NCBI GenBank assembly: GCA_030613245.1
Contig: JAUWMI010000031.1
Coordinates: forward strand, 1 to 57,446
Origin: Candidatus Sumerlaeota bacterium
GTDB taxonomy: Bacteria; Sumerlaeota; Sumerlaeia; MWCT01; JAUWMI01
Length of the DNA: 57,446 nucleotides
Reading direction: 5' to 3'
Under the pieces are notes generated by a model. The model saw only the letters and a list, made by a program, of their open reading frames with translations, had not been told where the DNA came from and ran no database searches. Positions 1,396-57,131 of this stretch are shown here, one piece after another. Both the position numbers and the translations under genes were made by a program. Numbering within the stretch: the stretch's first letter is position 1; the number at the start of each line of letters is the position of its first letter.

Positions 1396-1634
1396 CCCTC
1401 AACAACTCCTCTCTCAAGCGTGAACTATTCGGCTCGTTACCAGTGCCATAGAAACAAATATCTGGTTGCAAGCCTGTTCGTGGTGTTTTCCCAATGTTGT
1501 ACTTATAGGAAAGTGCCTAACGTAATTCAACTGGAAAATGCAACCCCACAACGCCTCCTCGCCATTACTCTGTCAATCTGAAAACGTCGCCTCGCCGCAT
1601 TTCTCCCTGCTTCCTCTCACAGATGCGAGCTAAA

Positions 1635-1660
1635 ATGCTAACCCATTTGACAAAGAGCCA
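1635..1660 (+). repeat. Solitary terminal repeat of the MITE-like family
   Basis: Reads ATGCTAACCCATTTGAC followed by AAAGAGCCA. It is nearly identical to the right ends of the elements at 30084-30331 and 44187-44459 and to the partial copy at 41205-41229. No matching left end was found within about 300 bases upstream, so this is a remnant. It abuts the secG terminator. Confidence 0.6.
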
Positions 1661-26283: not shown

Positions 26284-26474
26284 TATATTTAAACTTCCCG
26301 AAAGTTGGCGACGTCCTTAGCTTAGGTATCCGAACAAATAGGATTTCAGACTCTTTATTATACGGGCTAGCGCGATCCCAATTTATGCACAGGATAACTT
26401 TGCTATTTTCATACCTGGACAACCAATTCAGGCTCCTTGACTTTTGCCTTATAGCTCGATTTTGCTGCTTTTTA

Positions 26475-26600
26475 TCCCCTCTCCCCATGGGAGAGGATTA
26501 AGGTGAGGGAGACTCTTCTCTTCGTTCAGAGTGACAGCCTGGATTTGTTCACACGGATAACTGCTGTCATTCTGACCCGCCACGGCGGGAAAGAATCTCA
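26475..26600. repeat. Two adjoining palindromic repeat remnants
   Basis: CCCTCTCCCCATGGGAGAGG (26476-26495), followed by ATTAAGGTGAGGG, is the widely dispersed CCCTCTCCC repeat; related copies lie inside 44187-44459 and at 41127-41181. Next, TCAGAGTGACAGC (26526-26538) faces GCTGTCATTCTGA (26563-26575), 12 of 13 paired, followed by AAAGAATCTC. The following gene's reading frame stays open through these repeats, which makes the annotated start ambiguous. Confidence 0.65.
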
Positions 26601-29925: not shown

Positions 29926-30083
29926 CTGAATTCTTACCTTTGCGTCTCCACAGCGTCAACTAAATTCTCTAGCTTGCCCTAGAACTTTTCACATCTGGTC
30001 TCATCAGCTTTCTGACCTGTTTTGATTGACGTCTGCCACAGAGAGCGTGGAGCCTCAATAAGTAAAAAAAGTCTTTGTTTGAT

Positions 30084-30331
30084 TGGCTCTTTGTCAGATT
30101 AGGTTAGCAAGAAAACCTCTGATGCATTGAATAACTTCAGTGTTTCCATGCCTAGGCAAGAGTACGGCAGTTGCTTGGATCTGTGCCTCATTACGTAATG
30201 TGCCTGCTGTGTATTCCCTCTTCACCAGCCAATAGGACGAGTAGGGGCGTTTAATTAAACGCCCTTACTATTCAGCCGATCTTTTTCTATAGTTACGATG
30301 AAAAAGCGCTAACTCATTTGACAAAGAGCCA
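30084..30331. mobile_element. MITE-like element, copy 1 (with target duplication)
   Basis: 248 bases bounded by TGGCTCTTTGTCAGATT at the left and its inverse (AATTTGAC-like end ...CAAAGAGCCA) at the right: 13 perfect terminal pairs and further imperfect ones to GGTTAGC / GCTAAC. It is flanked by the direct repeat TTTGAT (30078-30083 and 30332-30337), a target-site duplication. No transposase gene is inside. A GTAGGGGC palindrome (30241-30268) sits in the middle. The right end supplies the last codons and stop of the DUF2085 gene. Confidence 0.75.
30241..30268. repeat. GTAGGGGC palindrome, copy 1
   Basis: A 28-base palindrome starting GTAGGGGCGTTTAATTAAAC, with one mismatch at its right end. 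It is identical to 57104-57131 except for one base. It lies inside the MITE-like element 30084-30331. Confidence 0.8.
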
Positions 30332-30880
30332 TTTGATTTTCTGCCTTAATGGTTGCAGAACCGTGAAAGTGCAGACCTCAAAGACAGTAATCACGACTGC
30401 TGCAACAATCGCGACAAGACCCAGTAGTCCTAATATTTCAACGAAGGCAGAAGCAAAGGCAAATGGTGCACGCACAAATAACTGCATCAGCAACAACATA
30501 ATGATAATTCCCCCAAAATAGCTGCGAGGGGAGCGATTAGTCTGAAATAAATCCCACCGGTTTTGAACATTAAGCCATAGAAAGTAGAATACGCCTATAA
30601 TGAACAACTGGCCTGACAACGTGCGTATAGTTGCAGAGTGGGGTATGAGATGAAAACCAAAGATAAGCATCTGAATCATAAATAACCCATGAATGAATAG
30701 AATTTTTCTGCTAGGTTTGAATTTCATCAGCGGCAGCAACAATAGCATGAGCGTAGCGCCTGCGTAAACTCCAGCGCAGCGTTGACAAAAGGCTAAAACA
30801 AAGCCGCCAGGCGCCCAACAACGCACAGCTTCCTGATGGCAGAGATGCGAAAATAGAGAATCAGCGATTGTATGAAGCAT
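30314..30880 (-). CDS. DUF2085 membrane protein, C-terminus formed by an inserted element
   Basis: 188 residues. The N-terminal signature LCHQEAVRCW and FCQRCAGVYAG matches DUF2085 (paired Cys motifs, possibly metal-binding), followed by about five membrane helices. Function unknown. Its last residues (WLFVK and stop) are encoded by the terminal repeat of the MITE-like element. Before insertion the frame would have continued about 33 codons beyond the TTTGAT target, or less. It begins directly at the stop codon of the upstream gene (30881), so the pair is one operon. Confidence 0.8.
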   Translation of the reverse strand: MLHTIADSLFSHLCHQEAVRCWAPGGFVLAFCQRCAGVYAGATLMLLLLPLMKFKPSRKILFIHGLFMIQMLIFGFHLIPHSATIRTLSGQLFIIGVFYFLWLNVQNRWDLFQTNRSPRSYFGGIIIMLLLMQLFVRAPFAFASAFVEILGLLGLVAIVAAVVITVFEVCTFTVLQPLRQKIKWLFVK

Positions 30881-40973: not shown

Positions 40974-41042
40974 TGGCCGTCTGAAGGTATCCTGTCGCTC
41001 AAAGTCCTTGCCGAATGTCTTATGTTTGATCTTCTGCATAAA

Positions 41043-41118
41043 AACCGGGCTTTGATACAAGAACCAGGTTTTGACATAAGAACCAGGCTTTGACATAAGA
41101 ACCAAGCTTTGACGCTTA
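41043..41118 (+). repeat. 19-bp tandem repeat, four copies
   Basis: Units AACCAGGCTTTGACATAAG and variants at 41043, 41062, 41081 and 41100, directly head to tail without spacers. Copies 2 and 3 differ at one base; the outer two are more diverged. It lies between the kinase gene and arsC. Confidence 0.85.
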
Positions 41119-41204
41119 TTATTTCCCCTCCCCTGGAGGGAGAGGACCAAGGTTTACCCGCCTCAGGCGAGGTGAGGGGGGTGCTCCTCCTTTTACTCCC
41201 CGAA

Positions 41205-41229
41205 ATGCTAACTCATTTGAGAAAGAGCC
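41205..41229 (+). repeat. MITE-like family, right end only
   Basis: ATGCTAACTCATTTGAG followed by AAAGAGCC. It is preceded at 41127-41181 by CCCCTCCCCTGGAGGGAGAG and GGTGAGGGGGG, the same internal repeat type as the element 44187-44459. No left end was found, so it is a truncated copy just before arsC. Confidence 0.65.
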
Positions 41230-43906: not shown

Positions 43907-44663
43907 CTCTTTATCCCATATTCCTATTGGTGACGGCAATAAGGCGTGGTTATATGGCAAAACCAGTGACGTCTGGCAAAGCTGCAACTATTCTATATTC
44001 ATTATCTACTCATTTTAACTTCTGGTGAAATTGCTATACCACATCTTAACGTTTTTAATATACTCCCTCGGCTCCGGCGCTGTCAATAAGGGTATGTTCT
44101 TTACTGAGATTTGAATAGCCACACGATAATGATCCGATCTTATGCGTTAATATAATAGGCAAACTCGATGTGTATTATTATAGAATAGGCTCTTTGCCAG
44201 ATAGGTCAGCAAGAATATTCATATGTCAAAGAACAAGTTCAGTTTTTGCAGGTTTCTAATATAACTTCTTCCCCAACTGCATTCTGCTCTTAATGCTTGA
44301 AGGTTGCTTCAAGAAGATGGCGTGAATTGACAGGGTGCTCTTTGCTATTCGCCATCTCCAGTCGTTGTCCAACCTTGCATCCTCTCCCCTTGCGGGAGAG
44401 GATGGAGGAGAGGGGGGTCATTATTTAACTGAAATGCTAACTCGTTTCAAAAAGAGTCATAAAATCTGTCCTGCATGGTTGTGCATTCGGCTTCTTTATC
44501 GCCCATCACCTCGAAAATGCTGCTTGCTACTCACTTGCTCTATGAAATTCCGCTTGACTCTCCAGCGGTGCACGTTTTTATGGTTTCTCGCAGCTCTATC
44601 AGAGCGGCAAACATCGAGTAGCCATATAGAGGCATCGCGTGGGCATTCCAGCTACGCAGTAGC
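43907..44663. other. Intergenic region carrying MITE copy 2
   Basis: 757 bases. The second MITE-like element occupies 44187-44459. Upstream of the LOG-family gene, TTGACT near 44552 with TTTATG about 17 bases later is a possible promoter. Short frames across this stretch are not credible genes. Confidence 0.45.
44187..44459. mobile_element. MITE-like element, copy 2
   Basis: 273 bases. The left end AGGCTCTTTGCCAGAT, continuing to GGTCAGCAAGAA, matches the left end of copy 1. The right end ATGCTAACTCGTTTC...AAAGAGTCA matches its right end. The terminal repeats are more diverged (about 15 of 24 pairs). Flanking TAGAAT (44181-44186) and TAAAAT (44460-44465) agree at 5 of 6 bases. The interior differs from copy 1 and carries a CCCTCTCCC/GGGAGAGG palindrome. 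Confidence 0.65.
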
Positions 44664-57083: not shown

Positions 57084-57103
57084 ATCTTTCCCCCGTTTTG
57101 AAT

Positions 57104-57131
57104 GTAGGGGCGTTTAATTAAACGCCCCTAC
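57104..57131. repeat. GTAGGGGC palindrome, copy 2
   Basis: A perfect 28-base palindrome starting GTAGGGGCGTTTAATTAAAC. It differs by one base from 30241-30268. It could act as a second terminator-like hairpin, but no T-run follows. Confidence 0.85.

Follow-up and report, generated by a model that had tools for sequence, protein, structure and literature searches.

The window analyzed here, a whole stretch of 57,446 nucleotides that makes up contig C7 of a Candidatus Sumerlaeota draft genome, contains at 30084-30331 a short segment with perfect 13-bp inverted ends (30084-30096 and 30319-30331 are inverted copies of TGGCTCTTTGTCA) and the letters TTTGAT on both sides. The locus raises the question of what kind of mobile DNA this is, where exactly it begins and ends, and which class of transposase could have moved it. 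The initial annotation had placed the segment in a MITE-like family, a reading upheld across the genome, where the ends are shared, the interiors differ and the targets are duplicated.

The Ends Define a Dispersed Family of Noncoding Elements

The expectation that a genome search with the ends would return consistent inverted pairs was borne out. The 23-bp end GGCTCTTTGTCARATRRGTTAGC has 108 copies at three or fewer mismatches in the draft (4.29 Mb, 97 contigs, 96% complete), and the reversed control has 0. In the surrounding sequences 109 ends were listed, and plus and minus ends were then paired; the 23-bp ends occur as such +/- pairs, that is, as terminal inverted repeats. Left and right ends are distinguishable, being of the GTCAGATAGGTTAGCAAG type and the GTCAAATGAGTTAGC type, respectively. 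Thirty-one paired elements of 137-568 bp were delimited, 29 of them 137-482 bp long and two composite or invaded forms of 505 and 568 bp; a transposase gene is too long for any of the 31. Copies are dispersed over many contigs, and about 10 contig ends fall inside or adjoin them. With the 246-bp element of the first locus as query, about 22 near-full or partial copies were found in the genome at 83%-95% identity. The family has the attributes of MITEs: a typical size below 500 bp, no coding capacity and no transposase, inverted repeats, a duplication of fixed length, and dispersed copies with a paralogous empty site on contig C14. No coding role was found for the elements, and an Rfam search for an RNA role had no match at them.

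The full S1 consensus (Table 1) had no match outside its own genome among 60 relatives, the nearest of which share only the order. At two or fewer mismatches, the end pattern was confined to its own genome among 39 genomes of the class (0 of 38 class relatives). Exact end patterns gave no match in GTDB species genomes or in IMG/VR, nor did a 33-bp end in a blastn search of plasmids. The family is lineage-private, unusually diversified and new, while belonging to an already described ISL3-type sort of MITE.

The Target Duplication Is 8 bp

Flanking 8-mers agree at seven or more of eight positions in 20 of the 31 elements, compared with 0.43 expected from cross-pairs; none of 10,000 permutations reached 20, and their maximum was 7. 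No comparable signal was seen in the 31 elements at lengths of 4-7 or 9-12 bp. For a few composite or nested elements, the choice of outer pair had been made with the flanks in view; this selection is not behind the signal, because an unselected list of 45 end pairs gives the same 20 at 7/8 (about 3% expected). The duplications are 84% A+T, compared with 50% for the window, and 11 of the 31 elements are without a duplication of at least 7/8. The duplication thus measures 8 bp, which places the element of the first locus at 30085-30330, flanked by GTTTGATT and ATTTGATT.

A duplication of 6 bp around ends reading TGGCTC...GAGCCA had been proposed instead, and TTTGAT does stand on both sides of 30084-30331. 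This alternative has next to no probability left: 6-bp flanks match in 4 of the 31 elements, with 1.6 expected (744 of 10,000 permutations), versus 20 of 31 at 8 bp. A 6-bp duplication family was accordingly rejected, its flanks being barely above chance. The 6-bp repeat arose because each boundary had been drawn a single base outside its true place. The outermost T/A pair at 30084/30331 is part of the target site and lies outside the element, whose exact boundaries enclose GGCTC...GAGCC.

Elements of the Window

Table 1. Elements and related features of the window, and sizes of the subfamilies
Feature	Position	Strand	Description
S1 MITE, complete	30085-30330	+	246 bp, noncoding; outer ends GGCTCTTTGTCAGAT...ATTTGACAAAGAGCC
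Left target duplication of S1 MITE, GTTTGATT	30077-30084		7/8 with right copy
Right target duplication of S1 MITE, ATTTGATT	30331-30338		7/8 with left copy
Left terminal inverted repeat of S1 MITE, GGCTCTTTGTCAGATTAGGTTAG	30085-30107	+	
Right terminal inverted repeat of S1 MITE, GGCTCTTTGTCAAATGAGTTAGC	30308-30330	-	
Internal palindrome, AGTAGGGGCGTTTAATTAAACGCCCTTACT	30240-30269		Separate dispersed repeat of the genome, inside S1 MITE
S2 MITE, complete	44188-44458	+	271 bp, noncoding; ends GGCTCTTTGCCA / GACTCTTTTTGA
Left target duplication of S2 MITE, ATAGAATA	44180-44187		Decayed, 6/8 with right copy
Right target duplication of S2 MITE, ATAAAATC	44459-44466		6/8 with left copy
Left-truncated copy	41004-41229	+	S5-like left half, shared right half; surviving end right only, 41207-41229
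Solitary right end of decayed copy, GGCTCTTTGTCAAATGGGTTAGC	1630-1659	-	~30 bp matching other copies
Subfamily S1			245-bp module; also composites of 367-568 bp with second module
Subfamily S2			~270-320 bp; includes 44188-44458
Subfamily S3			199-253 bp
Subfamily S4			354-396 bp
Subfamily S5			235-270 bp

The S1 element of the window shows 90%-94% identity to full-length copies of S1 at other genomic loci. The stop codon (at 30314) of a minus-strand DUF2085 ORF (30314-30880) is supplied by its right end, and the insertion probably altered the C terminus of the ORF product. The second element had been recognized as such, with related ends, at 44187-44459; its true bounds lie one base further in on each side, and its flanks are 8-mers agreeing at 6/8 and not a 6-bp repeat. 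It is 86%-89% identical to S2 copies on C1, C35, C43, C47, C67, and C76.

Two solitary right ends, placed earlier at 1635 and 41205, do exist but lie two bases away, at 1637-1659 and 41207-41229, and belong to truncated or decayed copies. In the latter, 41004-41055 and 41095-41123 match C47:82578-82847 and C31:25601-25856, right-half matches reach 41229, and no left end flanked by a matching 8-mer was found. Within 4.5 kb, no convincing partner end was found for either orphan (1659 and 41229), and for 1659 none at all. Other orphan ends in the genome are mostly right ends, some of which keep a decayed left end. Near-tandem copies of a AAGAACCAGGCTTTGACAT-like unit occupy 41040-41110 in the truncated S5-like element.

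Subfamilies, Composites, and a Nested Insertion

The interiors form at least five subfamilies, which have only the ends in common. The interiors of the two complete window elements differ, as had been observed, but are not arbitrary, since they belong to two coherent subfamilies. Several composite S1 copies have matching duplications at the outer pair only (8/8 on both C42 and C48), which indicates that the whole composite moved as a unit and bypassed the internal right end. In solo S1 copies, the right end that was used corresponds to that internal one, and in a tree of S1 modules the solo and composite copies do not fall into separate clades.

An S3 element on C14 harbors an S1 element, each with a duplication of its own (AGAAACAC, 8/8; TTAAGATA/GTAAGATA, 7/8). 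Removal of the S1 element together with one 8-mer restores S3 better than keeping two or zero 8-mers, in four of four S3 comparisons. This nesting is an intragenomic (paralogous) empty site with exactly one 8-mer.

Internal Palindromes and Hairpin Blocks

The internal palindrome AGTAGGGGCGTTTAATTAAACGCCCTTACT has tens of further genome matches outside the MITE, one of them in the window at 57099-57131. In the form TAGGGGCGTTTAATTAAACGCCCCTA (57099-57131, 30240-30269) it occurs both within S1 MITEs and at many loci besides, and C31 and C71 carry related palindromes (GTAGGGGCGTATTGCAATACGCCCCTAC). A hairpin block, CCCCTCACC..CTCTCCCC-N-GGGGAGAGG..GGTGAGGGG, noted at 44380-44416, 26471-26522 and 41119-41153, is found inside several MITE subfamilies and alone at 26477-26512; short inserts in it (TTTACCCGCCTCAGGCGAGG, TTGAAAATGCGCCTTGTGCGTAG) are present or absent, varying across subfamilies. 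The S1 element at C71:58443-58879 is split at the internal palindrome by some 190 bp of sequence that ends in another palindrome, an arrangement resembling the insertion of palindrome-bounded DNA. Y1 (HUH) transposase-like genes at three loci (C92:47712, C72:14619, and C50:52743) are candidates for a REP-type system. They were not linked to the internal palindrome, since no GGGGCG palindrome was found in the 3-kb regions around them.

Could the whole family consist of recombining or functional intergenic repeats (REP/ERIC-like, terminators) that are not transposons and whose similarity was spread by gene conversion? Transcripts across the S1 element would fold strongly (z = -5.95), strong hairpins are present in each element, the internal palindromes also stand alone, and subfamilies appear to swap hairpin blocks, all of which would suit such repeats. 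They would not account for 8-bp duplications exactly at the ends of subfamilies with unlike interiors, for the nested insertion on C14, or for ends identical to those of ISL3 insertion sequences, and we regard this explanation as very improbable.

The Ends Match ISL3 Insertion Sequences

The initial annotation had assigned the ends to no recognized family. Judged by their sequence, they equal ISL3-family insertion-sequence termini, in the sense that such ends exist in ISL3 and not that all ISL3 elements are proven to have them, several other ISL3 copies having not been delimited. ISL3 ends on plasmids were located by an inverted repeat plus an 8-bp direct repeat, without use of a motif. Ends with GGCTCTTTGTCAAAT are the right end of IS1251, the left end of IS1476 and one from a Lactococcus ISL3 element; those of ISEfa5 and ISEfa11 read GGCTCTTTGTCAATA. 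The first 15 bases of the IS1251 right end (GGCTCTTTGTCAAATGATGTTGGT) and the IS1476 left end (GGCTCTTTGTCAAATAGGACTGAT) are identical to the right end here (15/15). Perfect 8-bp A/T-rich duplications flank IS1251, ISEfa5, and ISEfa11, and the duplications of the located ISL3 elements include AAAATTAT, GTTTTAAA, and AAAAAAGT. Similarly, ISArsp7 (ISL3) has GGCTCTTC ends with an 8-bp repeat (PMC6305408), and a 187-bp MITE of Microcystis with GGCTCTTCG ends and 8-nt repeats has been attributed to ISL3 (PMC11448079).

Elements of the IS6 family also make 8-bp duplications; their tips are GG, with cTGTt and caaa motifs further in, and the IS6 MITEs described include ones of 227 and 336 bp (PMC7986276). 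Mobilization by an IS6-family transposase is nonetheless improbable: the ends agree with those of ISL3 at every one of 15 bp, cTTTg stands here in place of the cTGTt motif, and an IS6 transposase (DDE_Tnp_IS240, PF13610) had no match in the genome. Moreover, replicative cointegration, as in IS6 elements, would not easily produce clean repeats at the flanks, which counts against them. No IS256/mutator transposase was found in the genome either.

A search for an autonomous transposon with the same ends had been proposed. In the 96%-complete draft, no ISL3 transposase was found: the PF01610 profile of ISL3 transposases and the IS1251 transposase as query gave no match, and HTH_Tnp_ISL3 gave nothing above the cut-off. 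The elements have the terminal sequence and the 8-bp duplication of an ISL3-derived or ISL3-mobilized group and lack a resident autonomous PF01610 partner. Its lack bears on the residency of the partner, not on the type of the ends. As many contigs end inside elements and the draft is 96% complete, the assembly may have lost an autonomous element that is itself repeated.

With a probability of about 0.9, we take 30085-30330 and 44188-44458 to be MITEs of a lineage-private, multi-subfamily group with ISL3-family ends, mobilized in trans by an ISL3-type transposase now lost or unassembled. The paired 23-bp ends, the 8-bp duplications, the nested insertion and the mobile composite are observed, and the action in trans is our inference. 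An ISL3-type DDE transposase would bind only the ends of about 23 bp, excise or copy the element, and join it, with a stagger of 8 bp, to A/T-rich sites; with this transposase gone from the assembled genome, most copies would now be decaying. A broader picture, to which we would give even odds, is that an ISL3-type MITE population outlived its transposase in this lineage, that a different right end, further out, serves the composite (S1 plus second module), that subfamilies are invaded by small palindromic repeats and exchange them, and that the ends alone are the conserved mobile unit.

Comparison with Known Systems

The result is a MITE family, well delimited and from a lineage with sparse sampling, for which the boundaries, the length of the duplication and the probable class of transposase are now fixed. 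It accounts for many contig breaks in the assembly and for the window's orphan repeat ends. TIMEs, which derive from Tn3, are likewise non-autonomous, have AT-rich targets and form mosaic composites, but their duplications are 5 or 6 bp rather than 8 bp (PMC4133298). IS6 elements and their MITEs share the 8-bp duplications and GG tips (PMC7986276) and differ in the cTGTt motif and an IS6-type transposase, neither of which was found here. The ISL3 elements IS1251, IS1476, ISEfa5, and ISEfa11 share the terminal GGCTCTTTGTCAAAT and an 8-bp, often A/T-rich duplication; they are autonomous elements of about 1.5 kb with a PF01610 transposase, whereas the window elements encode none. The 187-bp MITE of Microcystis aeruginosa PCC 7806 is alike in being noncoding, shorter than 300 bp and present in about 30 copies, and in its ends starting GGCTCTT, 8-nt direct repeats, stem-loop fold and ISL3 assignment (PMC11448079). 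Its copies are reported as identical (33 and 31 copies), and Microcystis has ISL3 transposases with the same ends (PMC11448079), in contrast to the at least five subfamilies, the substantial divergence and the lack of an ISL3 transposase in the draft genome here. The comparison suggests that ISL3-type MITEs, already known from Microcystis, may be more widespread.
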